This document shows positions 21,106 to 50,340 of a stretch of DNA of 64,000 bases, piece after piece. The translations under genes were made by a program, and so were the position numbers. Origin of the DNA: Actinoallomurus soli. Lineage in GTDB: Bacteria; Actinomycetota; Actinomycetes; Streptosporangiales; Streptosporangiaceae. Position 1 is the stretch's first letter; every line of letters starts with the position of its first letter. The stretch lies in the NCBI RefSeq assembly GCF_024055715.1, contig NZ_JAMXMV010000002.1, forward strand, positions 310,001-374,000. Direction: 5' to 3'. The notes beneath the pieces were generated by a model, which was not told the origin of the DNA, did no database searches, and saw only the letters and a list, made by a program, of their open reading frames with translations.

Positions 21106-21215
21106 ATGCCGACCGCCGAGTGGGCCGTGGACTCATCAGCGGCGAATGAGACCAAAAATGAACCAGAACGACCCTGGGCGCCTCTCCGAGGGAGAGACGC
21201 CCAGGTCAACATGGG
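21106..21215 (+). pseudogene. integrase C-terminal remnant beside att
   Basis: SSAANETKNEPERP in one frame and RLSEGETPRST in another match the end of the intact integrase at 36.7 kb (FTANETENETRND...RLSEGETPTS), so a frameshift lies between them. The hairpin GGGCGCCTCTCC..GGAGAGACGCCC (21,176-21,202) is conserved. It is what is left of the integrase gene of an older element that used the same tRNA site. Confidence 0.65.
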
Positions 21216-21258
21216 AGCCGCCTGTCGGAATCGAACCGACGACCTATTCATTACGAGT
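21216..21258. mobile_element. attL core (43 bp, identical to tRNA-Thr 3' part)
   Basis: This 43-base segment beginning AGCCGCCTGTCGGAATCG and ending CATTACGAGT is identical to 36,821-36,863, which spans the tRNA-Thr gene from its discriminator base to the anticodon loop. It is the left boundary of the integrated element. Confidence 0.92.
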
Positions 21259-21440
21259 TCCGGTACCAGTAGTTCGGCACCGTCCGCCGAGGTGCACCTG
21301 ACCGGCCTATATGGCGAAAGGCGCACCTCGGCGGACGTAGGCGTATCACAGCCTACGCAGAACCAAATGAGACCATGTTTGAGACGCCTGGTCATTCTCT
21401 CCCGGGTAGCATTCGCGCCCCAGCATGACCATCCACACTG

Positions 21441-22529
21441 CTAGGTGCGTGGTCGCCGCGGCTCAGGTAGCAACGGCTGAGCCCGACAGAGTGGCTTGCC
21501 AACGCGCGTTTCCACGAAAAGCCTATGTTGGGCTAGTGGCGGGTCAAAAACGAGCTTATCTGGTTCCCACCCGACGGTGATTGTTCCGGCGCAGCAGCGC
21601 CCCAACGGTTTACCAGAAGCTACTCGCGCTGCTAGATGACTACCCGAACCCGGAGAAGTATTCCCATGACAATGAACAGACAACTGCGTACACGCGATAT
21701 GAGCATCCGGGGCCCCTTGTCGCACACCTGCGACTATCCGAGGATCTGGGTTTGCGGGACGCCGACTACTCTTTATAGAGAAGATCACAAGTTCCGGCTG
21801 AATCAGCTCGGATAGCTCGACGGCAAACTCATAGGGATCCGCGTTTCCGGGGAGTCCACCGTGATGCGGGAATACCAAGACAGGCGCGTTTAGGACTTTC
21901 CCGTTCTCCCGAATGTGATCAAGGGCGGTTCTGTCCATGTCTGCAGCGAGCAGCACAGCAGGCCGCTCGGCGAGATGCACCCTAATGACCACGGAAACAG
22001 CGTTGGTGGTTAGCCGGCCATACGCTGAAGACCGCCCGGTAGGACCGGTACCCGCAAGCAGGATACTGGGATGGGCAACTTCCAGGACGGCACGCCCACA
22101 CGTCAGCGTCTGACTAATCTCCGTATGTATCGACTGATGACCTTCTAAACCGCCCTTGCGCTTCCGAGTCCAGACCGCCCGAAGAAGTCGATTCCAGATC
22201 TCACTACCCTTCTCGCCGTCAGCGTTGAACCATACGGTACCGATGGTTCGGGCATCGTCGAGTAGCAGCGTAGGGCCGCCACCGGCGTGATCCTTATCCG
22301 AGTGAGAGATTATCAAATGCTCAATATGCTCACAGTTAACTCGTTCGAGCTCATCAAGCACAGCATCACCAGGGGCAGCATCGACGATAGCGCAATTCCT
22401 ACCGTCTCTCACAAGAGCACAATTACCGTGCCCCACATCGAAGATCGTCACCTCGAGGTCAGCATCTTCAGCGTGTTCGATTACGGTAGCCGCGTCGGGG
22501 GCCGCGGGTTTAGTCACTCCTCTAGCCAT
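21441..22529 (-). CDS. ComEC-like metallo-beta-lactamase-fold protein
   Basis: A 362-residue soluble MBL-fold protein. FDVGHGNCALVRDGRNCAIV (about 30-49) and the metal motif ISHSDKDHAGG (His76, Asp78, Asp80, His81) match the competence-type ComEC/Rec2 hydrolase subfamily; VLLAADMDR and VFPHHGG supply later metal/active-site residues. The membrane part of ComEC is absent, and the last about 80 residues are not recognised. A role in DNA or nucleotide hydrolysis is known for some members but unproven here. It is the last gene of a three-gene overlapping cassette (start overlaps the receiver gene by 16 bases). Base composition is lower in GC than the flanks. Confidence 0.8.
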   Translation of the reverse strand: MARGVTKPAAPDAATVIEHAEDADLEVTIFDVGHGNCALVRDGRNCAIVDAAPGDAVLDELERVNCEHIEHLIISHSDKDHAGGGPTLLLDDARTIGTVWFNADGEKGSEIWNRLLRAVWTRKRKGGLEGHQSIHTEISQTLTCGRAVLEVAHPSILLAGTGPTGRSSAYGRLTTNAVSVVIRVHLAERPAVLLAADMDRTALDHIRENGKVLNAPVLVFPHHGGLPGNADPYEFAVELSELIQPELVIFSIKSSRRPANPDPRIVAGVRQGAPDAHIACTQLSVHCHGNTSPGSGSHLAARVASGKPLGRCCAGTITVGWEPDKLVFDPPLAQHRLFVETRVGKPLCRAQPLLPEPRRPRT

Positions 22530-23230
22530 CCTTCAGGGAGATCGGGAGCAAGAACTATGTTCCTATAGAATAGCTCAGACGCTTCCTTTGCGTGGCAGTT
22601 AACGTCGGCCTCCAGCCAACGACCCGGAAGATTCTCCGCCGACAACCCCGTCGCAGCAACTATCGGCTGCAGAGGCATCCACACGGAGGTTGCGATACGC
22701 CAACCAACCACAATCACTTTTGCGGCCGGCACTTCGCTTTCTGTTACTACATCAAGCACCTCAATGGGAGTAGTAAACGCGCGCCTCTCGCGAGAAACCT
22801 TCCCACTGAGCTCATCGATGGTATAACTAAGGGCATCAATAACGCTGTCGGATAGCTCACTCTTATCGACAACGGCCGGGATACCCTCTCTCCACCTTCG
22901 GATCGAGCCCGTCTGGTCAGTCTGCACGTGGCTGCTGATGAGCACTGCGGGTAGTGGAGACCGAGTCAGGCGATTGGCTTTACTTACCAACTCGGCACCA
23001 GTGAACCGCACGGCCCCGCGACCACTAAGAATATGGTCGCAGACAAGTGCATCGTACCGGCCTGATAGTTGAGCCAGGAAGGCATCGGCATCCAGTGTTG
23101 GATCAAACTCAGTTATCGTCTCCGCGTGAAAACCAGCGTCCACCAAGGGATGGGTCCAAGTCCTCGCGTCCAGTGGATCATCGTCCACAACGACGACCGA
23201 TGCGCCTTCCTCTAGGATCAGTGCACTCAA
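22514..23230 (-). CDS. response-regulator receiver domain protein with unknown C-terminal domain
   Basis: A 238-residue protein. The N-terminal about 130 residues form a receiver domain: acidic cluster Asp16-18 (VVVVDDDP), phospho-acceptor Asp65 (DALVCDHIL), Ser99/100 (VLISS) and Lys123 (VVDKSE). The C-terminal about 100 residues (VIVVGWRIATSVWMPLQPIV..., ...EASELFYRNIVLAPDLPEGW) match no output domain I know; there is no DNA-binding motif. Its ATG overlaps the stop of the dual-GHKL ATPase gene by four bases and its end overlaps the MBL gene, so all three are co-translated. It probably receives a phosphate from the neighbouring kinase-like protein and passes a signal to the MBL effector (inference). 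Confidence 0.78.
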   Translation of the reverse strand: MSALILEEGASVVVVDDDPLDARTWTHPLVDAGFHAETITEFDPTLDADAFLAQLSGRYDALVCDHILSGRGAVRFTGAELVSKANRLTRSPLPAVLISSHVQTDQTGSIRRWREGIPAVVDKSELSDSVIDALSYTIDELSGKVSRERRAFTTPIEVLDVVTESEVPAAKVIVVGWRIATSVWMPLQPIVAATGLSAENLPGRWLEADVNCHAKEASELFYRNIVLAPDLPEGWLEE

Positions 23231-25380
23231 CTTTCGACTCCCTGCCTAGCCGGAAGCCAGATAGTGATATGAGCCCCCCCGAGGTCCCCATTACTCTTTG
23301 CTTCCTGAATGCCTTTCAGATCCGCGACGATGTCACGCACGATCGTTAGCCCAAGACCAGTCCCGTTATCTCGAGTTGTCTTTCCAGGCAGCCATATGGC
23401 ACTCAGTGAAAGCCCTCGAATGCCCGGCCCGGAATCATCGACATCTATCACGATCCCAGACTTACCATTTCGACTATCCTGCTTAGTCTTGATTCGGATG
23501 ACGCGTCTGCCCGGGAGAGCATCCTGCCGAGTAAACGCGTGAGCAGAATTTGCGATTAGATTCGATAGAATAGATTCAATATCAGCGATAGTCGTCCGAA
23601 CCACCACGCCGGGTGCATCGAGATCAAAGTCTACCTCAATTGCACGCTCCTGAAGATAGCGCGAGAACAGCTGAACAACCGCCTGGCAGGCCACGTCTAC
23701 TTCGATATCAGCCACTGAGCGCTTACTTTTCTCAAGCAAGCTGAGAGGTAGTTTGGCGAAGGTTTCTAGCGTCTTCGCACTGTCCAGCGACGTGTCGACA
23801 GAGTCTCGAAAGTAACGGGTGTAGTCTTCGGGTGCGATACGACCAGTAAGGCGCCTGCTAACCGTTTTTATCTCATTGATGATCCGTTTCGCCGGCTTCA
23901 GCGCCTCATGTGCGAATACAGCCGTGCTCGTACCGACCGTGGCCAGAGATCGGTAAAGCAATAGGTCTTCACGCAGAGCCCTGTTCTCATCATGCAGAGT
24001 CGAGAATACTTCGGTCGCACTTTCGGTAAGGTGTGCGAGCACTGCAGGGTCACCCTGGTCCAGGGGTAGCATATCTGCGTCTTTCGGCGAAATCGCATTC
24101 AACAGGTTCTGGAACTTGGTCTCAGCCTCCTGAACGCGATCTCTAGCCTTCGCCGAAGCACCAACTCGTCGCTGCTCTCTTTCGTCCATCCGCTGCTCGG
24201 CGGCCCAATCGAGTGCACACTTGGCGAACTCCTGCAGCTCCAGGAACGCGACGTTATCCAGGAACCCACTACGGTCGGTCTTGGGCTTAAGAAGGTTCTC
24301 CGGATCGTCCACCTGGATACGTCCGAGAGAATTGTTGGTAGATGGCCGAACCTCAGGTGAGGCCGCTCGCCTAAGGTTTATACCCAACCAATCATTGCCA
24401 ACATCTCCGTAGGGCTGAACACGGAGACCTCGATGATAGAGGTGAATGCCGCCGACTTGCCTAAGCCATCCCCTGAGGGATTTTGTGTCCTGACTACTAT
24501 GGCGGACCTCTTTGGATGCACCGGGGTTTAGATTGAACATCCACATCTCGAACGTCGCTGAAGGCGCCTCAAATGCGAGCACGGGATCCGCTTTCTTGCC
24601 TCGCCCAGAGCGCTTGCGCGCAACCTGATCGTGCTCTCCTCTGAATTGCTCTTCGTTGCGCCAATTGAACAGCGATGCCGTAACTTTACCCGTATCATCG
24701 AGCCGAGCAACGAGTCGATATTCGAACCACTCGAGCAATGGTCGATTTATCAGCTGCTGAAGACTTGTAAACTCCGGAGCGTCGCACGTTACTCTGAAGG
24801 CAGATTCGTCCGGGAAAGGGCCCGTCAGCAAGAGCAACGATCGAGCTAGACGTTCGGCGTCTTTCTCTTGCAGCCCTTGACGTAGTCCAGTGATAGTGAC
24901 GTCAGTCCCCGGCCCTTTATGACTGGGCGTACTATCGATTACAAGCGGAACGTCCTCCACGGCTTCGGACTCATCGACCTTGTTCCAGTCAATCGCCAGG
25001 ACGTGTTCGACCCCAGGATCTTCCACTGATCGACTACAGACCGTCACCTGAGTGCCCAAGCGAAGTGCCGCCAGACGACCGAGCCCCTTTTCGCCCACTT
25101 TGCGCCGACCATGGGGAGTATGGCTCGTCGAGATTTTCCCCGACTTGCCGATGAGCAAAAAACCCGAGGCCAGCTGTGCTGAGGTCATACCGTCGCCGTC
25201 GTCGCTGACGACCAGAGTTCCTCCAGGTTCGACAGCGCTACTTAGCTCGATGTGGCAGGTTGCGGCGTCGGCGTCGTAGGCGTTGCGAACGAGCTCCATG
25301 ATCCCAAGGTCCGCATGAGGGACCAGCTCTTCGCCTAGCCGTACGAGGACCTCAGGAGCGAAGCGGAGTCGATGCGCCAT
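23227..25380 (-). CDS. dual-GHKL ATPase: Hsp90/MORC-like domain plus histidine-kinase domain
   Basis: A 717-residue protein with two ATP-binding GHKL modules. The N-terminal one has the N-box ELVRNAYDADA (Glu29, Asn33, Asp36), G1 DDGDGM (60-65) and G2 EKGLGRLA (97-104), like HATPase_c_3 of MutL/Hsp90/MORC proteins. A middle region of about 250 residues resembles the transducer part of those ATPases. A helical segment (405-475) leads to a kinase-like end: FAHEALKP with candidate phospho-acceptor His491, N-box ILSNLIANSAHAF (607/611), DDSGPG (648-653) and GTGLGLTIV (673-681). No membrane helix is seen, so sensing is cytosolic. It is the first gene of the cassette, divergent from a DNA methylase, with lower GC than the chromosome. 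Confidence 0.85.
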   Translation of the reverse strand: MAHRLRFAPEVLVRLGEELVPHADLGIMELVRNAYDADAATCHIELSSAVEPGGTLVVSDDGDGMTSAQLASGFLLIGKSGKISTSHTPHGRRKVGEKGLGRLAALRLGTQVTVCSRSVEDPGVEHVLAIDWNKVDESEAVEDVPLVIDSTPSHKGPGTDVTITGLRQGLQEKDAERLARSLLLLTGPFPDESAFRVTCDAPEFTSLQQLINRPLLEWFEYRLVARLDDTGKVTASLFNWRNEEQFRGEHDQVARKRSGRGKKADPVLAFEAPSATFEMWMFNLNPGASKEVRHSSQDTKSLRGWLRQVGGIHLYHRGLRVQPYGDVGNDWLGINLRRAASPEVRPSTNNSLGRIQVDDPENLLKPKTDRSGFLDNVAFLELQEFAKCALDWAAEQRMDEREQRRVGASAKARDRVQEAETKFQNLLNAISPKDADMLPLDQGDPAVLAHLTESATEVFSTLHDENRALREDLLLYRSLATVGTSTAVFAHEALKPAKRIINEIKTVSRRLTGRIAPEDYTRYFRDSVDTSLDSAKTLETFAKLPLSLLEKSKRSVADIEVDVACQAVVQLFSRYLQERAIEVDFDLDAPGVVVRTTIADIESILSNLIANSAHAFTRQDALPGRRVIRIKTKQDSRNGKSGIVIDVDDSGPGIRGLSLSAIWLPGKTTRDNGTGLGLTIVRDIVADLKGIQEAKSNGDLGGAHITIWLPARQGVES

Positions 25381-25627
25381 GGCACTGTCCTTCCAGACGA
25401 GGCAGCAACCCGGAGTTACCTCCGTGACACGCCTGCCTAGAGCATGCTAGCCGGATAAATCGAGTAGCCGGCAGAGCTAGCGGTGGATACGAGCGGTCTG
25501 GACCAGAGACCCTGCCTGACAACCCGTAACGATCTATCCACTGAAGTTGTCGCGTAGGGCCGTCTTGTCCTGCAGAATGACACTCGGCGACCGGGCTGTC
25601 CTAAAGAACCGCAGGTGAGGAGCAACA

Positions 25628-26947
25628 GTGGGATCAACTGCCTACGAGCAGTATGCAAGGGACCTCTCGCTCCTGGCCGCCAGCATCAGACGCGACCCCT
25701 GGGACCGAGTAGAGCAAGACGTTCACGCTGCTCTTAACGGCCATGCGGCGAGGATGCTGCGCACGTTGGTGCCTCTTGAGTTCCGGCGCCAGACGGGCGC
25801 CTTCTTCACGAGCGGGCCTGCCCGGGACCGGTTTGCCGACCTCCTAGCCCCCGCGGATGACGCAGAGCAGACCGCCGTGTTCTGGGATCCGACATGCGGC
25901 GCCGGGGACCTGCTACTCGCCGCGGCCGATACCTTCCCGATCCGTAACACGCTGAGCGCGACGCTACGGGCTTGGAACAGATCGCTGCATGGGCATGAGC
26001 TGCAGCCAGCTTTTGCAGAGGTCGCTCGCCTACGGCTGTTCATCGCCGCTGCAGCCCGCCACAGAGCACGGGGCGACAAGGTAAGAACGAATCCTGAAGC
26101 TGGAAGCCGCGCGTTCAATAACGTACATGTTAGCGATGGCCTCGCGGCTTTGCGCACCCATAAGCGGTTTAAGGGACATATAGTTCTTAACCCTCCATTC
26201 GGCCCTGTTCAGGCCGATGCTGGATGCGATTGGTCTAGCGGAATGACTTCTCAGGCGGGCATTTTTTTCCTTGAGGCAGCCATGACGCTTGCTTTCGGCG
26301 GCACGATCACCGCAATCCTGCCAGACGTCCTTCGCAGTGGTAGTCGTTACCGCTATTGGCGTGAACGAGTTAGCAAGCTGCTGGAGATCAAAAAGATTTC
26401 ACCTTTCGGAAGGTTCGATCGATACACTAACGTTGACGTTTTTCTACTACAAGGGAGACGGCTTTTCGCAAGCGAAACGCCGAGCGCCGAGACTCAGTGG
26501 TGGAGGTCTCTGAACGCGTCTGCCTACCTAGAAGACCTGTTCAACGTCCGTGTCGGCTCGGTCGTTGACAACCGCGATCCTCACGAGGGTCGAGAAGCGC
26601 CGTTCCTCACAGCACGCTGCATGCCACCTTCTGGCCAGATGGAGGTGCCTGAGCGCCGACGGAAATACTCTGGCAGACTTATTACGCCGCCTTTCGTCGC
26701 CGTCAGGAGAACTTCACGTCCGAATTCTGATGGCAGCTCACGCGTACGCGGAGTATTGCTGACCGGCGATGAGCCGATTGCTGTCGACAATCATTTGATC
26801 ACTCTAAGCCCGAAAAGCGGAAACGTTGACGAATGCTTCCGCCTCCTAGAGATTCTTGCATCTGACGAGGTGGCGATGTGGCTAGACGAGCGAATTCGCT
26901 GTCGTCACTTGACTGTTGGCATCATCCGCTCGATTCCATGGCGATAA
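25628..26947 (+). CDS. N6-adenine DNA methyltransferase (N6_Mtase-like)
   Basis: A 439-residue class I methyltransferase. The region RRQTGAFFTSGPARDRFADL resembles motif X of type I-like adenine methylases. SAM-binding motif I is FWDPTCGAGDLLL (86-97) and catalytic motif IV is VLNPPFG (186-192). A C-terminal half of about 200 residues may act in target recognition. No restriction subunit or HsdS follows. The GTG start at 25,628 follows the sequence GAGGAGCAAC. It is divergent from the dual-GHKL gene across a 247-base gap and may mark self DNA for that cassette, or be an orphan protective methylase of the element. Target sequence unknown. Confidence 0.85.
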   Translation: MGSTAYEQYARDLSLLAASIRRDPWDRVEQDVHAALNGHAARMLRTLVPLEFRRQTGAFFTSGPARDRFADLLAPADDAEQTAVFWDPTCGAGDLLLAAADTFPIRNTLSATLRAWNRSLHGHELQPAFAEVARLRLFIAAAARHRARGDKVRTNPEAGSRAFNNVHVSDGLAALRTHKRFKGHIVLNPPFGPVQADAGCDWSSGMTSQAGIFFLEAAMTLAFGGTITAILPDVLRSGSRYRYWRERVSKLLEIKKISPFGRFDRYTNVDVFLLQGRRLFASETPSAETQWWRSLNASAYLEDLFNVRVGSVVDNRDPHEGREAPFLTARCMPPSGQMEVPERRRKYSGRLITPPFVAVRRTSRPNSDGSSRVRGVLLTGDEPIAVDNHLITLSPKSGNVDECFRLLEILASDEVAMWLDERIRCRHLTVGIIRSIPWR

Positions 26948-27008
26948 GGGTCGGCGAGCAACCGCTTCGAGTTCAAACGAAGTATCGCGAAAGGCTTGGA
27001 TTGGAGGG

Positions 27009-27737
27009 CTACAGGGGGTGAGCTCTCCACCAGACACGCTCAAAGCTATCGGCGTATATGCTGGCCATGTCATCTTGCTCAAGGTGTCGCACATGGAGCA
27101 CCGGCGCGTTTGAGGCTGTGATGCCATAGGCGTGCGGGTTGATAAGGAGATCGTCATCGGCGCGATATATCGAGGCGTACAGGATGGTTTTGTGTAGCCG
27201 CATTTCGACACCGTCAACATCTCGAAGCGCCTGGTACAAAACCATACTATTTCTGATCTTGGCTGCCATCGCCTCGTCCACGCCCTCGTCGGCACCGCGC
27301 TCGGCGACATGCGGGCTATTGGGGTCACCGAGCAAGATCCGTACAGCGACGCCCGCGTTCGCCTTTGCGGCAAGGATACGGAGGATTCCGATATCCTCAG
27401 CGAGGAAGAGACCTGAGTAGACGAGGATGCCGATCTCTCGTTCAGCTTGGCTGAATAGCCATTGCCATACGTTTCGGGGAACGGCCCATCGGTGCGCGTA
27501 GGATGCTTCGATCTCAGCGCCGCCGTTTTGTGGCGATGGTGACGCAGGAACCTCAGCACGCCAGATCTTCGCCTGCTCGATACCAAGGAGAGTGGCGAGT
27601 TGAGAGCGGTGACGCGGGTATGGACGTCGCCCGTCCAACCAGCGTCGCACGGTCTTCACATCCACGCCCAAGCGGACGGCTACGTCCTGCTCAGTCAGGC
27701 CGGCCTCAGCGAATGCACGCCTCAACACCTCGTTCAC
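27009..27737 (-). CDS. XRE-family regulator with DUF5919 PLD-like domain (copy 1)
   Basis: A 242-residue protein with an N-terminal XRE helix-turn-helix (RRAFAEAGLTEQDVAVRLGV, DVKTVRRWLDGRRPYPRHR) and a C-terminal DUF5919 domain (REIGILVYSGLFLAED, VRILLGDPNSP, LHKTILYASIYRADDDLLIN). The latter resembles phospholipase D folds, but the HxK catalytic motif is degenerate (HKT), so ligand sensing is more likely than hydrolysis. The GTG at 27,737 is chosen because GGAGG lies six bases upstream and the helix-turn-helix begins there; the longer frame to 27,953 adds no domain. It is paralogous to the gene at 30,353-31,096. Two direct GACGTC repeats lie just upstream. Confidence 0.82.
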   Translation of the reverse strand: MNEVLRRAFAEAGLTEQDVAVRLGVDVKTVRRWLDGRRPYPRHRSQLATLLGIEQAKIWRAEVPASPSPQNGGAEIEASYAHRWAVPRNVWQWLFSQAEREIGILVYSGLFLAEDIGILRILAAKANAGVAVRILLGDPNSPHVAERGADEGVDEAMAAKIRNSMVLYQALRDVDGVEMRLHKTILYASIYRADDDLLINPHAYGITASNAPVLHVRHLEQDDMASIYADSFERVWWRAHPL

Positions 27738-27778
27738 CGCGATCCTCCAAACCGCGCTGTCTGGGCCGACGCTAACAC

Positions 27779-27802
27779 AAGACGTCCCTAGACGTCCCCT
27801 AG
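27779..27802. promoter_or_regulatory. direct GACGTC repeats upstream of XRE-DUF5919 copy 1
   Basis: AGACGTCCCT and AGACGTCCCC are direct repeats ten bases apart, 42-65 bases upstream of the GTG. Read on the gene's strand they are GGGACGTCT twice, followed by TTGTGTTAGCGT, a possible -10 region. The motif recurs in the other regulatory gaps of the element. Confidence 0.55.
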
Positions 27803-27904
27803 CTGCCCATGAGAGGTCCTCGCTCTCACGCGAGCCTGTGTGGACATGTGGCGGATCGATCCGGTCCGCCGCTCGCGGACGGACCGCAGGCTGCGAGGCG
27901 CAAG

Positions 27905-28345
27905 ATGACTGAATGCTCTCGATCGAGCTGCATGCTGATGCCGGCCCTGCCACACACGGCCGGGAAGGCGCGGCAGTACGTGCGATGGCTGCTCAATGCA
28001 TGGAAGCTGCCTTCGATGGTGGAGACCGTCGAGCTGCTGGTCAGCGAGCTGGTGGCGAATGCCATCAACGCGACCGGCGTTACCGAGGTACCGGAAGACA
28101 TCAACCGGCTCGTCGGCAAGGCGCAGCCCATCTACGTCTGCATCTCGGTACGGCCTGAGGCCGTGCTGATCGAGGTCTGGGATTCCAGCAGCACGCTGCC
28201 GCTACAGCGTGCGGCAGCGGACGACGAAGAGAACGGCCGCGGGCTGGTGCTCGTGCAAGCGCTGTCGAAGGAGTGGGGCTGCGTCCTCCTACCGACGGGC
28301 GGAAAGATCGTCTGGTGCGAGTGCCTGATCGAGGGGTCGGCATGA
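27905..28345 (+). CDS. RsbW-like ATP-binding protein (HATPase_c_2)
   Basis: A 146-residue single-domain GHKL protein of the anti-sigma/RsbW type. It shows ETVELLVSELVANAINAT (N-box), LIEVWDSSSTLP (G1 reduced to DSS) and ENGRGLVLVQALSKEWG (G2). Such proteins are abundant in actinomycetes, where some bind anti-anti-sigma factors; the partner here is unknown. The ATG at 27,905 has GAGG upstream and cuts off a non-conserved N-terminal extension. Its stop overlaps the ATG of a GntR regulator (ATGA), so the pair is co-translated. Confidence 0.8.
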   Translation: MTECSRSSCMLMPALPHTAGKARQYVRWLLNAWKLPSMVETVELLVSELVANAINATGVTEVPEDINRLVGKAQPIYVCISVRPEAVLIEVWDSSSTLPLQRAAADDEENGRGLVLVQALSKEWGCVLLPTGGKIVWCECLIEGSA

Positions 28346-28587
28346 GGACACGGCGGAAGAGCTACGAAGAGGTCGCGGACGTCATCCGTGATCGGATCGC
28401 ACGTGGCGATTGGCGGCCTCGGAGCCAGCTTCCTTCTCAAGCGAAGATGGCCGAGGAGTTCGGCGTATCGAGCAGCACGGTTTCCGACGCCATCGCCCAT
28501 CTCCGGAAGCGCGGGTACGTCTGGACGCTGCCGCACAAGGGCAGCTACGCGCGGCCAGCTGAGGACTGGCGCGAGGAGTCCTCGTGA
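28342..28587 (+). CDS. short GntR-type winged-helix protein
   Basis: An 81-residue protein that is just a GntR DNA-binding domain: YEEVADVIRDRIARGDWRPR, SQLPSQAKMAEEFGVSSSTV, SDAIAHLRKRGYVWTLPHKG. The usual UTRA/FadR ligand domain is absent, so it may bind constitutively or depend on a partner. It overlaps the upstream ATPase gene by four bases and the downstream 61-codon gene by four bases (GTGA). In pSAM2 a GntR protein (KorSA) represses transfer genes; a similar role is inferred. Confidence 0.8.
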   Translation: MRTRRKSYEEVADVIRDRIARGDWRPRSQLPSQAKMAEEFGVSSSTVSDAIAHLRKRGYVWTLPHKGSYARPAEDWREESS

Positions 28588-28769
28588 ATCCGCGCGAGGA
28601 GCGGCTACAGCGCTCGCTGGCGGAGTTCTACGCCATGCTCGACAACATGCGGTTCACTGGCGCCTCTCAGGTCGTCGAGGTTCAGCAGCTCAAGGTCCTG
28701 GTCGGCAAGTATCCGGAGCAAGCACGGCGCTTCCTCGCCGATCAGGACGAGCGGCGACGCCCAGAGTGA
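28584..28769 (+). CDS. 61-residue hypothetical protein
   Basis: A charged helical protein (NPREERLQRSLAEFYAMLDN..., QVVEVQQLKVLVGKYPEQAR) that starts at a GTG overlapping the stop of the short GntR gene, which supports real translation. No family is recognised and there is no membrane helix. It looks like a small accessory or adaptor protein of the regulator operon. Confidence 0.55.
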   Translation: MNPREERLQRSLAEFYAMLDNMRFTGASQVVEVQQLKVLVGKYPEQARRFLADQDERRRPE

Positions 28770-28820
28770 TACGACTGCCATGGCCGCGCAGTGCGAGAGA
28801 CGCGTAGTGAGAGGAGCCCG

Positions 28821-29270
28821 GTGAGCCCACGAGAGACCGCATGGGGCGCGTACGCGCAGATTGCCGAGGTCCTGCGGCAGCGCATCAGCGGCGGAGAGCT
28901 CGTGCCCGGTTCTCCGATGCCTTCCGAAGCGGCCTTGTGCGATGAGTTCGCCGTTGTTCGTAACACCGTCCGTCGTGCTCTCGCCGCTTTGGAGGATGAG
29001 GGACTGATCGAGACACTTCCGGGCAAGGGGCGTGTCGTGCGTGGCGAGGCACCGACGCAGTATGAGTACCGCCGCATCGCTGCGGAACTACGGGAGCGGA
29101 TCGAGGGCGGTGACCTGGCAGTCGGCGACGCCCTGCCGAGTGAGGCCGCGATCGTCGAGACGTACGGGGTCGCACGAGGCACCGCGCGCCAGGCGCTCGC
29201 CGCCCTTGAGCAAGATGGCCTGATCGAGGCGCGGCATGGCAAGGGGCGCTTCGTTCGTAGACGTCCGTAG
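28821..29270 (+). CDS. tandem-repeat GntR regulator (two winged helices)
   Basis: A 149-residue protein with two successive GntR DNA-binding domains: residues of about 10-70 (YAQIAEVLRQRISGGELVPG...EAALCDEFAVVRNTVRRALA) and 80-148 (YRRIAAELRERIEGGDLAVG...EAAIVETYGVARGTARQALA). There is no ligand-binding domain, so the single chain carries what is normally a dimer's DNA-binding surface. GTG 28,821 is chosen since GAGAGGAG precedes it. It is the last gene of the regulator run. Its final codons overlap a cluster of GACGTC motifs that precedes the HD gene. Confidence 0.8.
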   Translation: MSPRETAWGAYAQIAEVLRQRISGGELVPGSPMPSEAALCDEFAVVRNTVRRALAALEDEGLIETLPGKGRVVRGEAPTQYEYRRIAAELRERIEGGDLAVGDALPSEAAIVETYGVARGTARQALAALEQDGLIEARHGKGRFVRRRP

Positions 29271-29302
29271 ACGCCTCGCCCGCGTCCGTGGACGTCCCTG
29301 AG
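29258..29302. promoter_or_regulatory. GACGTC motif cluster before HD gene
   Basis: TAGACGTCC, TAGACGCC and GGACGTCC occur within 45 bases, followed by TAGCGTCGG (about 29,312), which is the same putative -10 context as upstream of XRE copy 1. The cluster lies 22-66 bases before the HD gene ATG. Confidence 0.5.
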
Positions 29303-29323
29303 TCACCACGTAGCGTCGGAGAC

Positions 29324-29881
29324 ATGAGACAAGCCGACTGGGCCGAAGAGATCGCTCGCAAGCTCCTCGAAGTGCCGCTTCCCCGTCGTTGGGCACACAG
29401 TCAAGGCGTTGCCCGGCAGGCCCGGAGCCTCGCGCCAATCCTCGGCGATGACGCCGATCTCCTCGAAGCCGCCGCGTGGCTGCACGACGTCGGCTACTCC
29501 CCTGACCTTGTGGACACCGGCCTGCACTCTCTCGACGGCGCCCGTCACCTTCGGGACGTCGAGCACGCCGACGACGCGTTGTGCAGCCTCGTCGCCTACC
29601 ACTCTTGCGCCATCAACGAAGCCAGCGAACGTGGTCTGATCGCCGAGTTGACCAGCGAATTCAAGCCTGCTGATCCGTTCTTCTCCGACGCCCTGACCTA
29701 CTGCGACATGACCACGACGCCGGACGGGGAACCCATCGAGGTAGAGGACCGTCTTGCCGAGATCCAGTCACGATATGGCGCCGACCATCTCGTGGCGCGC
29801 TCGATAAGGCGCTCGTCACCGCACATCGTCGGATCCGTTCGGGCGATCGAAAGAGCTCAGGCCGAGGCGCCGATCAGCTGA
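29324..29881 (+). CDS. HD-domain phosphohydrolase
   Basis: A 185-residue HD-superfamily protein: His25 (RRWAHSQGVARQA), the HD pair 54-55 (AAWLHDVGYSPDLVDTGLH) and a later Asp near 130 (DALTYCDMTT), as in nucleotide phosphohydrolases and HDIG proteins. The substrate is unknown. This gene is common in actinomycete integrative elements next to GntR/XRE regulators. ATG 29,324 follows a GACGTC cluster and a possible -10. The 3' end overlaps the convergent Nudix gene by eight bases. Confidence 0.82.
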   Translation: MRQADWAEEIARKLLEVPLPRRWAHSQGVARQARSLAPILGDDADLLEAAAWLHDVGYSPDLVDTGLHSLDGARHLRDVEHADDALCSLVAYHSCAINEASERGLIAELTSEFKPADPFFSDALTYCDMTTTPDGEPIEVEDRLAEIQSRYGADHLVARSIRRSSPHIVGSVRAIERAQAEAPIS

Positions 29882-30356
29882 TCTCCGGAGCGGTCTGCCC
29901 GGAGAGGTAACGCTCGACGCGCAGCCGCATCGAGCGGTCCATCGTGTAGCCGCGGACGTCATCTGGCGCGACCCAGCGCACTTCGCTCGACTCGCTGCTC
30001 GGTGTCGGTGTGCCACCGACCGGCCGAGCCGTCAGGACGATTGAGAACTCCTGTCGGACCTCGTCGTTACTCGTGTAGTGCATGACGTGCTTCGGGTCGG
30101 TGTAGATGCCGACGAGGCCGGTTATCTCGCAGTCGATCCCGGTCTCTTCCTTCGTCTCCCGGACGGCTGCCTGTGCGAGCGATTCGCCGAGATCGATGGC
30201 ACCCCCAGGGACCGCCCAGTTGTCGTTGTCGGTGCGGCGGATGAGCAGGATCTCGCCCTGGGCGTTGGCGACGACGACGTTGACCGACGGGACGATGCTG
30301 TTTGCGGCCGGCGCGTCGGGGTCGTCGTAGTAGTCGATCCGTCGCCCCAACGTCAC
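29874..30356 (-). CDS. Nudix hydrolase (Pif-like?)
   Basis: A 160-residue Nudix protein with a canonical box at residues 51-74 (GGAIDLGESL...RETKEETGI). It hydrolyses a nucleoside-diphosphate derivative, not identified. The pSAM2 transfer-immunity factor Pif also carries a Nudix motif, and this gene occupies the regulator block of a pSAM2-like element, so an entry-exclusion role is a reasonable inference but unproven. Its ATG overlaps the stop of XRE-DUF5919 copy 2 (ATGA), so the pair is translationally coupled. Confidence 0.82.
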   Translation of the reverse strand: MTLGRRIDYYDDPDAPAANSIVPSVNVVVANAQGEILLIRRTDNDNWAVPGGAIDLGESLAQAAVRETKEETGIDCEITGLVGIYTDPKHVMHYTSNDEVRQEFSIVLTARPVGGTPTPSSESSEVRWVAPDDVRGYTMDRSMRLRVERYLSGQTAPEIS

Positions 30357-31096
30357 GCCTCCGGTATCGGTGTCGCGCCGTCCCAGACGCGCTCGAAGCT
30401 TTCGAGGTAGGTGTTCACGATGTCGCCGCCAGCAACCTTACGAAGGTAGAGAACCGGCGCGCGCGGCGCGGTCACGCCATAGACGTGCGTGTTGACCAGC
30501 AACTCGTCGTCGGCCCGGTAAATCGAGTTGTACAAGATCGTCTTGTGGAAGCGAAATTCGATGCCCTCGACGGTGCGCAGCGGCCGGTACATGACGAGGG
30601 CGTTGCGGATCTTGGCCGCCATGGCGTCGTCCACGCCCTCGTCGGCGCCACGTTGTGCCACTTCAGGGCTGTCCGGGTCGCCGAGCAGGATGCGCACTCG
30701 TACGCCTGCCCGTGCCTTCTCCATAAGGATCTTCTGTATGCCGCCATCTTCGGAGAGGAAGAGGCCGGCGTAGACAAGGATCCCGATCTCGCGCTCGGCC
30801 CGTGAGAACAGACGTCCCCATCCGTCCCGCGGCACGGCCGTACGCTGCGGATAGACGGTGATGAGCTCGCTCTGAGATGCCGCGGTGACCTGCTCATTCG
30901 AGAGCGCTTCGGGCCACAGGTAGGTCTCGTCCACGCCGAGGCGCGTTGCCACTGCATAGCGGTGTCGACGGTACGGCGTGCGTCCCTTACTGATCCAGCG
31001 CTCAACGGTCTTCTCATCGACGTCGATCGCCTCGGCGAGTGCGGCAACGGTGATTCCCTGCTCTAGCAGGACCGCTCGTAGCCGTTCGTTCGCCAT
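30353..31096 (-). CDS. XRE-family regulator with DUF5919 PLD-like domain (copy 2)
   Basis: A 247-residue paralogue of the gene at 27,009-27,737: XRE domain (VLLEQGITVAALAEAIDVDE, KTVERWISKGRTPYRRHRYA) and DUF5919 domain (REIGILVYAGLFLSED, VRILLGDPDSPEVAQRGADE, FHKTILYNSIYRADDELLVN). The DUF5919 parts are much more alike than the DNA-binding parts, which suggests shared ligand but different operators. It leads a two-gene operon with the Nudix gene. Several GACGTC motifs lie upstream of its ATG, so it may be autoregulated. Confidence 0.84.
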   Translation of the reverse strand: MANERLRAVLLEQGITVAALAEAIDVDEKTVERWISKGRTPYRRHRYAVATRLGVDETYLWPEALSNEQVTAASQSELITVYPQRTAVPRDGWGRLFSRAEREIGILVYAGLFLSEDGGIQKILMEKARAGVRVRILLGDPDSPEVAQRGADEGVDDAMAAKIRNALVMYRPLRTVEGIEFRFHKTILYNSIYRADDELLVNTHVYGVTAPRAPVLYLRKVAGGDIVNTYLESFERVWDGATPIPEA

Positions 31097-31112
31097 CTAC
31101 CCGACCGGATCG

Positions 31113-31172
31113 CAGGACGTCTTGGGACGCCAACACCCTAGTCAGGACGTCATGAACACGTCCAGTCATGTA
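31113..31172. promoter_or_regulatory. GACGTC motif cluster upstream of XRE copy 2
   Basis: AGGACGTC (31,114), GGGACGCC (31,124), AGGACGTC (31,144) and ACACGTCC (31,157) lie in the 17-76 bases before the ATG of XRE copy 2, in the 263-base divergent gap to the transfer module. Confidence 0.5.
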
Positions 31173-31261
31173 GGTGCTCGTCACGGCTGATCGGCGCATC
31201 CTCGATGGCGTAAGGAAATCCCGATAAGCCAGAGCCACCGTTCCGGCGAACAACCCAGACC

Positions 31262-31291
31262 TTGACAGGTGCTAAGACGTCGCACTGTAAT
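31262..31291 (+). promoter_or_regulatory. sigma70-type promoter of transfer module with GACGTC in spacer
   Basis: TTGACA (31,262-31,267) and TGTAAT (31,286-31,291) are separated by 18 bases. The spacer contains AAGACGTC, so a protein bound there would block RNA polymerase. The promoter is 69 bases upstream of the first gene of the transfer block. Confidence 0.6.
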
Positions 31292-31359
31292 CGTGCACAT
31301 GACTAGTCCTGTTCACTTCTTAGGTGGTGCCGGGACGTGGGCTCGGAGAGGAGCCCTCG

Positions 31360-31551
31360 ATGCATCTTCGCCCCCTCCCCCTGGACGACTGGCAGCGCCA
31401 GTGCCCGTGCGGGGCGCGCTCGGAGTACCGGTTCGGCCTGTGCCGCAAGTGCCGTGCCCGCGCCGCTTGGTTCCGCCGTACCGCCCGCGCTCGGCGCGAT
31501 ACCCGCGTCCGTCGCATCTTCCGCCGCGACGCCGAGGCGGTGAGCCGGTGA
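31360..31551 (+). CDS. 63-residue zinc-binding-like basic protein
   Basis: A very basic small protein with the Cys pattern CPCGARSEYRFGLCRKCRAR (CxC...CxxC), a probable zinc knuckle, followed by an Arg-rich tail. ATG 31,360 has GGAGAGGAG upstream and is the first gene after the transfer promoter. Its stop overlaps the start of the next gene (GTGATG). Nucleic-acid binding is plausible; no family name is recognised. Confidence 0.6.
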   Translation: MHLRPLPLDDWQRQCPCGARSEYRFGLCRKCRARAAWFRRTARARRDTRVRRIFRRDAEAVSR

Positions 31552-31817
31552 TGGCCATCGTGATCGCCGGACTCGCCCTCGTCCTCGCCGCCACGGCGCT
31601 CGTACTCATCGGCCTCGTCATCGTCGGTACTCATCGCGAGGCGCCCTGGGCCGGACTGGACTCCGCCGCCCCCACGCCGCTCGCCGCCTTCGCTCGCTCC
31701 GTCCTCGGCGTACACGTCCGCAAGCCCGACACCGACCACACCCGCGGCAACGACCTCCAGGCGGTCGGCTCCGACCGTCGCGAGCCCGTTCCCCTGGCCC
31801 GATCGGAAGGAAGGTGA
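31551..31817 (+). CDS. 88-residue single-helix membrane protein
   Basis: It begins MAIVIAGLALVLAATALVLI (membrane helix about residues 2-27) and continues with a polar tail rich in charged residues. A GTG at 31,548 is an alternative start one codon earlier. Its place in a run of short membrane proteins before DUF2637 and FtsK resembles the spread (Spd) genes of actinomycete elements, which act in intramycelial transfer. Specific function unknown. Confidence 0.6.
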   Translation: MAIVIAGLALVLAATALVLIGLVIVGTHREAPWAGLDSAAPTPLAAFARSVLGVHVRKPDTDHTRGNDLQAVGSDRREPVPLARSEGR

Positions 31818-31824
31818 TCTCCGC

Positions 31825-32019
31825 TTGGCGCTGTCCGTCTCGCTCGTCATCGTGCTCGGCGCGCTGGTCTACGGCCTGTACCGCTACGCCGGCCTCCGCG
31901 CCTGGCACGCCATCGTCTGCACGCTCTTCGGCTTCTACCTCGCCTCGACCTCTCTCGCGCCGCAGATCCGCCAAGGCGTCCGGTCCTTCGCTCATTTCCT
32001 GTCCGGCATCAAGATCTGA
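31825..32019 (+). CDS. 64-residue membrane protein, Spd-like
   Basis: A TTG start at 31,825 preceded by GGAAGGAAGG gives MALSVSLVIVLGALVYGLYR, one strong N-terminal helix, then AWHAIVCTLFGFYLASTSLA as a second helix, and a short C-terminus. It lies eight bases after the previous gene. It is probably one of the small Spd-type pore or spread proteins. The start codon is uncertain. Confidence 0.6.
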   Translation: MALSVSLVIVLGALVYGLYRYAGLRAWHAIVCTLFGFYLASTSLAPQIRQGVRSFAHFLSGIKI

Positions 32020-32029
32020 GAGGACCCCC

Positions 32030-32701
32030 GTGACCACGCCCCCAACGAACGCCGACCGTGACTGGTGGGTCATGGCAGGGATGAGCGTCGCCGCCGCCTC
32101 CGCAGCCATCGCCAGCTTCTCCGGGCTGCAAGGGCTGGCGCACATCGCCGGCTGGCCTTCACGGCTGTCGTGGCTGCTGCCCGTCACCCTGGACGCCTAC
32201 GCGATGACCTCGGCGCGTGTATGGCTGGCCATCTCGACGCGGTCGGCCGCCGCTCGGCGCTTCGCCCGCTTCAACGCCTTGGGCGCCATCGCGGCCAGCA
32301 TCGCGGGCAACGCGACGTACCACGCAGCCCGTACCGGACTCCTGTCGGTGTCCTGGCCCATCGTCGTCCTCGTGGGCGCCGTCCCCGCCGCCGTCCTCGG
32401 GCTCACCGCTCACCTTCACGCTCTGCAGGGACGGATCGAAGCCGCCGCCGAGGACCGGACCGGCGACCGCGACCGGCACTCCCGCCGTACTCGCCGCAAG
32501 CGCCACCGCCGGTACCGGACCGAGGACGAACTGATCCACGCCGCCCGCGCGGCCGACGCGCGGCACCGGGAAGTCAACGACGGCCGCCCCATCACCCGTG
32601 ACGCGCTCCGAACGACGCTGCGCGTCAGCAACGCCCGCGCCACCGAACTCCGACGCCAACTGATCGAGAAAGGCACCGCCGATGAGCAAGCCGACCTATG
32701 A
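32030..32701 (+). CDS. DUF2637 membrane protein (Spd-type)
   Basis: A 223-residue protein with four hydrophobic helices (SVAAASAAIASFSGLQGLAH, LSWLLPVTLDAYAMTSARVW, ALGAIAASIAGNATYHAART, VSWPIVVLVGAVPAAVLGLT) characteristic of DUF2637 proteins of Streptomyces elements. The rest is a basic cytosolic tail that ends in a short winged-helix-like segment (ALRTTLRVSNARATELRRQL). GTG 32,030 is chosen as the start (frame extension to 31,814 would overlap the previous gene entirely). It probably forms part of the transfer or spread apparatus with the FtsK-like protein. Confidence 0.8.
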   Translation: MTTPPTNADRDWWVMAGMSVAAASAAIASFSGLQGLAHIAGWPSRLSWLLPVTLDAYAMTSARVWLAISTRSAAARRFARFNALGAIAASIAGNATYHAARTGLLSVSWPIVVLVGAVPAAVLGLTAHLHALQGRIEAAAEDRTGDRDRHSRRTRRKRHRRYRTEDELIHAARAADARHREVNDGRPITRDALRTTLRVSNARATELRRQLIEKGTADEQADL

Positions 32702-32891
32702 CCCATACGCCCTGGTTGACCTCCTCATGAAGGAGCTGGCCCGCCAGGGCGTCAAGACCCGCTACACGCTCGTCCAGCTCGGCGACGCCGTGCCGGCCGC
32801 CGAGGCGCTGCTGTCCGCGCTCGGTGTGAGGCCCGCCGCGCCGCTCCCCAAGGACGTCCCCGACCGAAAGGAGGTGCCGGACTGCCCATGA
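32682..32891 (+). CDS. 69-residue hypothetical protein
   Basis: A small acidic/neutral protein (MSKPTYDPYALVDLLMKELA..., ...GDAVPAAEALLSALGVRPA) that overlaps the end of the DUF2637 gene by 20 bases and the next gene by four (ATGA). No family or motif is recognised. Translational coupling supports it being real. Confidence 0.55.
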   Translation: MSKPTYDPYALVDLLMKELARQGVKTRYTLVQLGDAVPAAEALLSALGVRPAAPLPKDVPDRKEVPDCP

Positions 32892-33241
32892 CACGCCCTC
32901 AACGGGCTCCACGCCCGACCCTCGACCTCAACGCTGTCCGTACTCACCTGCACGAAGCACGATCCGCGCGCGTACCCGTCGCGCTGTGGGTCGCCGTCGC
33001 CGACCTCCCGATGCTCATCGCCGAGGTCGAACGTCTCCGGTCCCTGCTCGCACTCGCCCGCGCCCAGTACGCCGCTCTGCTCGCCGCTGCCCGCGCCACC
33101 GTCGCCGCCGAACGAGACGGCGAGGGTGACCCGCTGCTCTATCTCCGGGACGAACTGGACGAGCACGGCCAGCTTCCGGACGAGGACCTGCACGCCGCCG
33201 AACTCCTCGCCCTCGTCGACCTTCGGGAGGGCGGCCGATGA
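32888..33241 (+). CDS. 117-residue helical hypothetical protein
   Basis: An Ala/Leu/Arg-rich, mainly helical protein: LPMLIAEVERLRSLLALARA has coiled-coil heptads, followed by an acidic C-terminus (DELDEHGQLPDEDLHAAELL). It overlaps both neighbours by four bases, so it belongs to the transfer operon. It is not recognised further. Confidence 0.55.
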   Translation: MTRPQRAPRPTLDLNAVRTHLHEARSARVPVALWVAVADLPMLIAEVERLRSLLALARAQYAALLAAARATVAAERDGEGDPLLYLRDELDEHGQLPDEDLHAAELLALVDLREGGR

Positions 33242-34998
33242 GGCAGCGCTACCCGACTCGCCGACGCCGGTGGGGCCGCTCCGAGCCCATGCCGCTGTAC
33301 GTCGTCACGGACGACCGCCAGGCGGGCGAGGCCATCGCAGTACTCACCCGATGGCTGTTCCGCTACCGCTCCGAACTGGCGCCCCTCACCACGGCGCTGT
33401 TCCTCGCCGGAACCGCAGCGTTCCTCCACCACGGCCACCGCGGACTCTGGCCAGACGTCCTCGCGCTCACCGTCGTTGCCGTAGCCGTCATCGTGGCGAG
33501 CGGTAAGCGCTGGCTCGATCCAGGCATCGAGCGCGCCTACGCCGCCGTCGTCGCAATCGCTGCTGGGGGATGGCTCGCCACGGCGACCGCGCACGGACCG
33601 ACCTCACCGCCGCTCCCCGGCCTGCTCGTCGCCGCCACTCTCATCTGCGGCGCGCCGTGGTGGTCGCACCGCCGACGCCGTTCCCGCGTCCGCATCGAAC
33701 GCACCGTGAACGCCTGGCCCGACCTCGCCGAGACGATCGGTCTTGCCGGATCACGCGTCCTGTCCGCCGTCGTCGACCTGTGGGGCTGGCGCGCCCGTCT
33801 GGCCCTCAAGCGCGGTCAGACCGTCACCGACGTCATCAGCAGACTCCCGGCGATCGAATCCGGTCTCGGTACGCGCCCCGGATCCGTCCGTGTCGAACCT
33901 GACCCCACTCGCGCGGATCACTGCGTCTTGCATGTCCTCGAAAAGGACCCGCACGCCCGTCCGATCCCCTGGCCCGCGCCGACCGGCACGAGCGTCGCCG
34001 ACGCCGTGGAACTCGGCGTCTTCGAGGACGCCACACCCGTGCGGGTCAGGCTCCTGCATCGGCATGCCCTCGTCGCTGGCATCGCCGGATCCGGCAAGAG
34101 CGGAATCCTCAACGTCATCCTCGCCGCCCTCACCGCCTACCCGGACGTGGTGATCTGGGGCATCGACCTCAAGGGCGGGATGGAACTCCAGCCCTGGGCG
34201 TCCTGCCTTGACCGGATCGCCACAGACCCGCGTCAGACCGCCGAACTCCTCGCCGACGCCGTCACCGTCCTCGACGCCCGCGCGGTCACCCTGACCCGCC
34301 AGGGCGCTCGCCTGTGGATACCGACTCCGGAAGAGCCAGCGCTGATCATCGTGGCCGACGAGTACGCCGAACTCGCCGACGAGTCGCCCGACGCGATGGC
34401 TCATGCGGACTCGATCGCCCGCCGAGGCCGTGCCGTCGCCGTAACGCTCCTCGCCGCCACGCAACGCCCGACACAGGCCGCCATGGGCAAGGGCGCCGTC
34501 CGTTCCCAGATGGACATCCGCATCTGTCTCCGCGTCCGCGAACGCCGCGACACCGATCTCATCCTCGGCCAGGGCGCCCACACCGCGGGCTGGCACGCTC
34601 ACACCCTCGACGCGCCCGGCAAGTTCCTTATCTCCGCACCGGGCTTCGACGTCCCTCGCCGAGCCCGTGCCTACCTGCTCACCGACGAGCGCGTACGCGC
34701 CACCACCCGCGCCCACCGCAACCGCCGCCCCCGTCTCGACGCCCTGTCCGCGGACGCCATCGCCCACACGACCACCGAGGTAGAGGTGATCGACGCCGAG
34801 ATCATCACCGACGACCCCGAACAGGCTTTCTGGACGGCACTGCTCGAAGCGCCCGATGAAGGGCTGTCTGTCTCCCAGCTCATGAAGATCACCGGCATGG
34901 GCCGCACCTGGGTCTACAGCCGACTCCAAGAGCACGCCCACGCAGGACGCGTCCAGCAGGTCTCCCGAGGCCGCTGGCGCGCCGCCCAACGTCCGTGA
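33238..34998 (+). CDS. FtsK/SpoIIIE-type DNA translocase (TraB/TraSA-like)
   Basis: A 586-residue protein. Two to three membrane helices lie near residues 45-130; a FtsK/SpoIIIE motor follows with Walker A GIAGSGKSGILN (about 282-292), the PDVVIWGIDLKGGMELQPW segment, and Walker B LIIVADEYAEL (about 369). The C-terminal 60 residues (GLSVSQLMKITGMGRTWVYS) form a winged helix like the FtsK-gamma DNA-reading domain. In actinomycete elements a single such protein moves double-stranded DNA between hyphae by recognising short repeats (clt). It overlaps its neighbours by four bases on each side. Confidence 0.88.
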   Translation: MRQRYPTRRRRWGRSEPMPLYVVTDDRQAGEAIAVLTRWLFRYRSELAPLTTALFLAGTAAFLHHGHRGLWPDVLALTVVAVAVIVASGKRWLDPGIERAYAAVVAIAAGGWLATATAHGPTSPPLPGLLVAATLICGAPWWSHRRRRSRVRIERTVNAWPDLAETIGLAGSRVLSAVVDLWGWRARLALKRGQTVTDVISRLPAIESGLGTRPGSVRVEPDPTRADHCVLHVLEKDPHARPIPWPAPTGTSVADAVELGVFEDATPVRVRLLHRHALVAGIAGSGKSGILNVILAALTAYPDVVIWGIDLKGGMELQPWASCLDRIATDPRQTAELLADAVTVLDARAVTLTRQGARLWIPTPEEPALIIVADEYAELADESPDAMAHADSIARRGRAVAVTLLAATQRPTQAAMGKGAVRSQMDIRICLRVRERRDTDLILGQGAHTAGWHAHTLDAPGKFLISAPGFDVPRRARAYLLTDERVRATTRAHRNRRPRLDALSADAIAHTTTEVEVIDAEIITDDPEQAFWTALLEAPDEGLSVSQLMKITGMGRTWVYSRLQEHAHAGRVQQVSRGRWRAAQRP

Positions 34999-50328: not shown

Positions 50329-50340
50329 CGTTCCCTGGGG

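Follow-up and report, generated by a model that had tools for sequence, protein, structure and literature searches.

A mobile cassette of Actinoallomurus soli that combines a dual-GHKL kinase, a receiver, a ComEC-like metallo-β-lactamase and an N6-adenine methylase, with a proposed role in methylation-gated restriction

The main finding of this study is that four genes of Actinoallomurus soli—encoding an ATPase/kinase with two GHKL modules, a response-regulator-like receiver, a ComEC-like metallo-β-lactamase (MBL) and an N6-adenine DNA methylase—form a real conserved module. They lie at 21441-26947 of the stretch analysed here, which we call the window (64,000 nucleotides, positions 310,001 to 374,000 of contig NZ_JAMXMV010000002.1), and we propose that they probably carry out methylation-gated restriction of invading DNA, run by a two-component His-Asp phosphorelay. 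As a preliminary description made from the sequence alone had claimed, the MBL, receiver and dual-GHKL genes overlap in one operon and the methylase gene is divergent; the three are on the minus strand, with overlaps of 4 and 16 bp, and the methylase is on the plus strand. The cassette is composed as follows:

21441-22529, minus strand: ComEC-like MBL-fold protein, predicted metal-dependent DNase effector (Lactamase_B match, AlphaFold model, PDB match, motif conservation)
22514-23230, minus strand: response-regulator-like protein, with a TTG start that overlaps the kinase stop (structure model, residue conservation)
23227-25380, minus strand: dual-GHKL ATPase/kinase (Pfam domains, residue conservation)
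25381-25627: divergent intergenic region of 247 bp, with presumed promoters of the kinase operon and the methylase
25628-26947, plus strand: N6-adenine DNA methyltransferase with a GTG start (motifs DPTCGAG and NPPF)

The search for a conserved neighbourhood that the preliminary description had proposed clearly finds these genes together. Using the N-terminal part of four kinases, we took the best 80 of 418 genome relatives and 8 viral loci, a selection that does not amount to a census; with 2 loci from a phylum search, 7 from plasmids and the window, less L097 (no kinase match), these make 97 kinase loci. L001 was removed because it is the window itself. L044 and L047 share one genome, L094 and L095 look alike, and L005 and L044 are close relatives. 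A kinase and a receiver within 3.5 kb of each other are found in 44 of the 97, window included, and 43 of these 44 have the MBL (L035 and L037, clustered as "other", are counted as MBL-type from the gene-content analysis). The 44 loci come from ten phyla—Actinomycetota, Cyanobacteriota, Pseudomonadota, Bacteroidota, Rhodothermota, Planctomycetota, Armatimonadota, Chloroflexota, Acidobacteriota and Thermodesulfobacteriota—and include one viral contig. The components are rare singly: within the phylum (396 genomes), a kinase of any branch occurs in three genomes, that of the window among them, and the MBL profile matches that genome only. At a threshold of 1e-12, the MBL profile has matches in 17 of 244 cyanobacterial genomes; six of these matches are near full length, and in all six genomes, three of which were already known (L023, L024 and L075), a kinase and a receiver stand beside the MBL; the remaining eleven matches are confined to the first 258 positions, the ComEC-like part. 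The core genes co-vary with each other (Spearman 0.67-0.75) more closely than the methylase does with the core (0.31-0.41), and none of 999 permutations reached as high a value in any of the six comparisons, to which shared ancestry alone may contribute. The weaker co-variation of the methylase fits an exchange of specificity and also a weaker coupling. Taken alone, the window could not have excluded that these are chance neighbours in a cargo region, but the recurrence of the set across ten phyla, plasmids and viral contigs refutes that reading, to which we give practically no weight.

The kinase has the two GHKL modules in one ATPase that the preliminary description had recognised, with H491 rightly placed. 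HATPase_c_3 (1.5e-19) and HATPase_c (8e-18) are matched by Pfam at the N and C terminus of a single protein, in which a MutL/Hsp90/MORC-like ATPase (E29, N33, D60, K98) is followed by a middle domain and a histidine-kinase half (H491, N607, N611, D649). Both domains are matched in all 44 MBL-type kinases, and H491-E492 is present in 44/44 of these loci. The C-terminal half is close to ordinary sensor kinases; the N-terminal half bears a weak likeness to Hsp90 and MORC and a clearer one to GHKL-containing type II restriction enzymes. Among the 94 kinases scoring above 100 bits, E29, N33, D60 and K98 are kept in all and the acceptor His in 88, the six without it being three from the PstI-type loci described below and shortened open reading frames (ORFs) in L066, L081 and L093; in this set the L029 kinase ends at the contig edge and its acceptor His is uncertain.

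The receiver falls below the Pfam threshold for Response_reg (0.026), and its model (predicted local distance difference test, pLDDT, 93) has a standard receiver fold (approximately residues 1-141) followed by a small β-rich domain (152-227). Structure prediction of this domain, which had been called an output domain of unknown kind, yields a modelled fold with the strand order β-β-β-α-β-β, from which alone it may be called OB-like (oligonucleotide/oligosaccharide-binding); the 50 Foldseek matches listed are all of receiver type. The phospho-acceptor Asp65 is present together with Asp17 in all 41 related receivers, and in 44/44 MBL-type loci. Two hallmarks of two-component systems, a His in the kinase and an Asp in the receiver, are thus in place, and the conserved Lys after β5 is not a feature of the group. 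The Asp65/Lys123 pair previously reported as intact is indeed complete in the window.

In the MBL, the HxDxDH motif given in the preliminary description is found (H76-D78-D80-H81, then D197 and H222/H223), with H76 rightly placed, in a protein that Pfam matches to Lactamase_B (2.4e-7). Its residues are kept in 42 of 43 MBLs, and the odd row is the downstream piece of a gene split by an insertion sequence in L005. That locus is the plasmid copy of Pseudanabaena ABRG5-3, where an IS982 insertion (9818-11771) interrupts the MBL gene. An extra C-terminal module holds C280, C287, C313, H335 and C348, of which the four cysteines are invariant (43/43). The best PDB match of the AlphaFold model (pLDDT 89) is the ComEC domain 9ic4 (TM-score 0.78 by target, 0.59 by query), and a profile of 40 MBL relatives also ranks ComEC chains first; among the matches listed, the best-scoring stretches end by position 252 of 333, so the Cys module lies beyond the ComEC-like part. 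A ComEC domain with the same HxDxDH motif is reported, in the passages on which we draw, as an endo- and exonuclease on DNA (PMC12455585), which favours DNA as the MBL substrate. The fold and the motif support the prediction that the MBL is an effector of the DNA-nuclease kind, in agreement with the nuclease half of the earlier "nuclease or nucleotidase" proposal. There are also weak local matches to the models of the defence MBLs LmuA, RTasMBL, Avs1a and 6A-MBL, the NCBIfam ones far below cut-offs; these proteins have the MBL fold in common with that of the window, with different partners, and the extra C-terminal Cys module distinguishes the latter.

The window methylase has the motifs DPTCGAG and NPPF, a sub-threshold match to Pfam N6_Mtase (8e-4) and a C-terminal region presumed to serve target recognition, and its nearest PDB relatives are type I M subunits and M.BseCI. 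Counting any methylase of three recognised clusters within 3.5 kb, 29 of the 44 kinase-receiver loci have one: 29 of the 30 outside cyanobacteria and none of the 14 within. The window family accounts for 27 of these 29, the other two being L043, with a different type of N6 methylase, and L046, with a C5 methylase, and the sole non-cyanobacterial locus without a methylase (L051) is also the one without an MBL. Of the role in self/non-self discrimination suggested earlier for the methylase, the tie to the system outside cyanobacteria is borne out, although it does not extend to the cyanobacterial loci. Kinase-receiver-MBL loci of cyanobacteria without a visible methylase include L024, L030 and L036.

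Comparison with described systems shows that the cassette is not wholly new, because its general class was described in 2021. The HEF_HK/Response_reg_2 class of Bellieny-Rabelo et al. comprises a soluble dual-HATPase protein, an adjacent receiver-like gene and restriction-modification (R-M) genes nearby (PMC8011034). In the parts of that paper considered here, the neighbours are mainly C5 methylases, Vsr and HNH, with N6/N4 methylases added in a figure legend; no experiment on function or mechanism is described, and an MBL is nowhere mentioned (PMC8011034). The window has the N-terminal HATPase_c_3, the C-terminal HATPase_c, the receiver neighbour and the R-M linkage in common with this class. 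Unlike the class, in which C5 predominates, it has an N6 methylase (a C5 cluster is found in 1 of the 44 loci, L046), and its branch has an MBL effector. One HEF_HK protein, a partial sequence, matches our kinase profile with an E-value of 2.4e-34 over positions 212-420 and 393-658 of 686, so that by this single comparison the homology extends beyond the generic ATPase domains. The Pfam models of the class draw a narrower boundary. PF19191 (HEF_HK) has no match at E ≤ 1 in the window kinase, and none in its genome; it is absent among the 25 of 42 families listed for the 44 kinases, where a single weak match elsewhere is possible; PF19192 (Response_reg_2) matches none of 41 receivers at E ≤ 1; and neither is among the 25 of 46 families listed for 50 proteins of other branches. 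Lying outside these models and yet homologous beyond the ATPase domains, the window is, as far as sequence comparison goes, a new branch of a broader HEF_HK-like class rather than a member as the Pfam models define it. The earlier statement that no named system has this exact set holds for the MBL/N6 branch—no paper on it was found in the open PubMed Central literature, which leaves preprints and most subscription journals outside its scope, and passages of PMC12839542, PMC7159879, PMC7824862 and PMC3710099 do not describe the set—but not for the combination of a dual-GHKL kinase, a receiver and R-M genes, in print since 2021 (PMC8011034).

Several other systems are related in part. In the R-M operons of MORC/paraMORC proteins, as in the window, a GHKL ATPase with catalytic motifs stands beside a DNA methylase and a nuclease; the paper of Iyer et al. 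(2008) does not contain the words receiver and two-component, and places a superfamily II helicase next to approximately 70% of MORC operons (PMC2292703). In the Shedu protein VcSduA, whose nuclease is fused to the ATPase and not a separate protein as in the window, the substitution E27A, described in the portion of the study used here as disrupting ATP hydrolysis, abolishes anti-phage activity (PMC12137116). By motif, E29 of the window kinase appears to be the counterpart of E27, and by analogy the VcSduA result speaks in favour of the ATPase half being an active part of defence. The type II enzymes of the BbrUII/HgiDII family (NF050001) have a similar N-terminal GHKL part (residues 10-200, 9.3e-21), and the 74 bits of this match against a cut-off of 550 mark a different protein family. 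Detocs, named in the preliminary description for comparison, is not supported as nearest relative, the HEF_HK/Response_reg_2 class being closer. It consists of a kinase and two receivers, acts in phage defence and has as effector a nucleoside phosphorylase fused to a receiver; it is not known to have a methylase or a MORC-like half, and by this definition the window differs in its one receiver and its MBL effector.

Mobile elements and viral contigs carry the cassette. An MBL search of 72,556 plasmids matched six records: three with the three closest kinase relatives, one with an MBL directly after an N6 methylase, and two annotated ComEC. The window methylase family is matched on four plasmids: those of Hymenobacter and Burkholderia have it next to the MBL type, and those of Rhizobium phaseoli and Klebsiella variicola next to receiver-like and HNH genes and a kinase in pieces; on the Klebsiella plasmid the HNH match is just below the Pfam cut-off and an annotated Ppl defence gene lies nearby. 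Genes with defence-like annotations near plasmid copies encode a patatin-like phospholipase and ThiF (L006), a Piwi domain (L007), AbiJ-NTD4 (L009) and Ppl (L101). Among viral sequences, single queries (the window kinase or the MBL) gave no match; scans based on alignments gave some. With the MBL, ten viral loci were found, "viral" being the label of the source collection, and all four genes are present in order on five contigs (L132, L133, L135, L136 and L138, with L132 and L133 nearly identical to each other and L138 being the contig on which L091 lies). The others hold a receiver and an MBL at the contig edge (L131, L137), a kinase and receiver in broken ORFs with an intact MBL (L134), or weak matches (L139, L140); profile matches place a C5-type methylase near the cassette in L134 and L137. 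Portal, terminase, scaffold/protease and major head genes adjoin the cassette in L132, with the same genes by sequence in L133, and by gene order we take them to be P2-like; other contigs encode a spanin (L135), an origin-nicking protein (L134) and a replication-initiation protein (L131). Such carriage, on plasmids, on viral contigs and at the edge of an integrative element, together with the pairing of methylase and nuclease within the cassette, familiar from type II R-M, is what would be seen in a selfish addiction module, in which a methylase antidote and a kinase-armed nuclease toxin would stabilise the element by post-segregational killing and defence would be incidental. Simple addiction needs no phosphorelay, however, and no methylase was seen in the 14 cyanobacterial loci, and we consider this explanation improbable.

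Of the remaining 53 kinase loci, four branches with other receivers hold 37, and 36 of these 37 have a methylase within 3.5 kb: 16/16 and 4/5 in two C5 branches, 14/14 in an N6 branch and 2/2 in an HNH branch. One C5-type branch has Vsr-cluster genes near 7 of 16 loci (Vsr by Pfam on one member). These genes, and the resemblance of the GHKL half to MutL/Hsp90/MORC, are what a DNA repair or processing module would lead one to expect, in which the MutL-like half would detect damage or mismatches in DNA, with the MBL as the repair nuclease and the methylase providing strand identity; a sporadic distribution (a kinase in 3/396 genomes) and viral carriage are unlike housekeeping repair, and make this very improbable. 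In all 14 loci of the N6 branch, whose methylase is of Eco57I type, there is a protein of approximately 240 aa (cluster C7, e.g., L058:11240-11950), with no Pfam or NCBIfam match in the one member checked, which is possibly the effector of that branch.

Elsewhere a recognisable nuclease takes the effector's place. Four Streptomyces-group loci (L016, L017, L018 and L056) combine a methylase and a BsuBI/PstI enzyme with a dual-GHKL kinase (PF06616, 2e-57, on one locus; the other three by family profile), and no receiver or MBL was matched in the sequence examined around each. At the acceptor position of the kinase, L016 has His, L017 Tyr, L018 Arg and L056 a deletion. The four kinases form one clade (100/100) nested within the MBL-type actinobacterial kinases, in a tree built from the reference columns only, insertions excluded, with a long-branch warning that applies mainly outside this clade; on this phylogeny the receiver and the MBL were most likely lost there. 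On a Pseudanabaena galeata plasmid (L103:3191-7035), a 934-aa N6 methylase overlaps a related ComEC-like MBL, with HxHxDH in place of HxDxDH, by 4 bp with no kinase between, a possible two-gene R-M-like pair. Together, these swaps (PstI-type, HNH and the Pseudanabaena pair) point to the MBL as the counterpart of a restriction nuclease, and to the receiver as the reason for which the His is retained. They also bear on a rival reading, an abortive-infection alarm in which the kinase would respond to a phage protein or to some condition of the DNA unrelated to methylation, and the MBL would destroy the DNA, RNA or nucleotides of the host, with the methylase protecting host DNA or only adding stability. 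Other MBLs serve defence systems (the weak matches above), a kinase relay reportedly can amplify, as in Detocs, and the cyanobacterial loci appear to manage without a methylase; yet a BsuBI/PstI enzyme in the effector place (in one clade), HNH beside the window methylase family and a methylase near 29 of 30 non-cyanobacterial loci favour restriction, and we judge an alarm of this type unlikely, though the least so of the rivals.

For methylation-gated restriction we envisage the following sequence of events. The methylase would mark a target motif in host DNA. The MORC/MutL-like GHKL half, acting as an ATP-driven clamp, would engage unmodified invading DNA (phage or plasmid), which we infer to be the sensed signal, and switch on the kinase half; H491 would then be phosphorylated and pass the phosphoryl group on to Asp65. 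In this state the receiver, via its C-terminal β-domain, would recruit or unlock the ComEC-like MBL nuclease, which would degrade the invading DNA or, less likely, all DNA of the cell, with phage defence as the presumed outcome.

A number of observations weigh against this proposal. For the 14 cyanobacterial loci, neither the clusters nor a search with four methylase profiles of every ORF in the sequence examined revealed a methylase (in L023, just 175 bp upstream were available to the search), and 12 cyanobacterial cassette genomes searched for the window methylase family gave none in 11 and one weak partial match; methylation sensing there would need another methylase, and methylation-based self-recognition in this form cannot be universal. 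Sixteen dual-GHKL loci outside the branches are evenly split, eight with a methylase and eight without one of the recognised clusters, two of the latter being on contigs shorter than 5.1 kb (L062, L079, L092-L096 and L098 are the loci of this type with neither a recognised receiver cluster nor such a methylase). Position 123 of the receiver, Lys in the window, is Lys in just 10 of 41 relatives and Arg in 19, which may point to an atypical form of phospho-signalling. The methylase of the PstI-type loci is just a distant relative of that of the window; their kinase half has been retained although there is no receiver, and direct action of the GHKL protein on nucleases is thus a possibility. PADLOC defence models are matched both among 65 proteins encoded near eight of the loci (e.g., CBASS cyclase, TIR effector, TGT, QueC, HEC-03B) and among 67 controls from eight other stretches of the same genomes (e.g., mad3, PtuA, Cas12f). 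Finally, no phage, nuclease or phosphotransfer experiment on the cassette was found in the literature.

As the preliminary description had also stated, the cassette is cargo just inside the end of a mobile element and stands out by composition: between 22 and 27 kb, the GC content per 1-kb bin is 54-62%, against 60-78%, mostly above 65%, in the other bins of the window. The landmarks of the element are:

21215-21258: attL, a perfect 44-bp direct repeat of the tRNA-Thr end
33238-34998, plus strand: FtsK/SpoIIIE-like transfer protein of the carrier element (FtsK_SpoIIIE, 2e-9)
35294-36865, plus strand: tyrosine-type integrase of the carrier element, beside the tRNA (Phage_integrase, 3.6e-23)
36820-36893, minus strand: tRNA-Thr gene; its 3' end (36820-36863) forms the other copy of the att repeat

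The identity of 21215-21258 with 36820-36863 supports attL and attR, the cassette starts approximately 180 bp inside attL, and the integrase and the FtsK/SpoIIIE-like protein are at the opposite end, so that 21215-36893 is an integrative element of approximately 15.6 kb with tRNA-Thr as its target; gene content suggests the kind known as actinomycete integrative and conjugative elements (AICE). Two related proteins with helix-turn-helix domains are encoded inside it (27009-27953 and 30353-31096), and L021, a cassette carrier from [Actinomadura] parvosata subsp. kistnae, has a relative of both as well as relatives of two window genes near 29.3-30.4 kb. Elsewhere, the window has tandem 17-bp repeats (50326-50442) and six 139-nt direct repeats (51188-52163).

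Classical type II restriction enzymes both recognise and cut DNA. More broadly than for the window alone, and tentatively, we suggest a restriction class in which a MORC-like clamp reads modification and a phosphorelay drives interchangeable nucleases (MBL, HNH, PstI-type), so that signalling, and not recognition by the nuclease, decides on cutting; the relay would decay once a self-recognising nuclease takes over, as in the PstI-type loci of the Streptomyces group. If true, separate and swappable proteins for sensing, phospho-signalling and cutting would join two-component signalling to restriction, and there would be a role for the fusion of MORC-like and kinase GHKL halves in one protein. 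The methylase, E29, H491, D65 and H76 offer a ready mutant series for a function left open in the 2021 description. Carriage by integrative elements and viral contigs, in turn, suggests that the cassette is used in competition between mobile elements.

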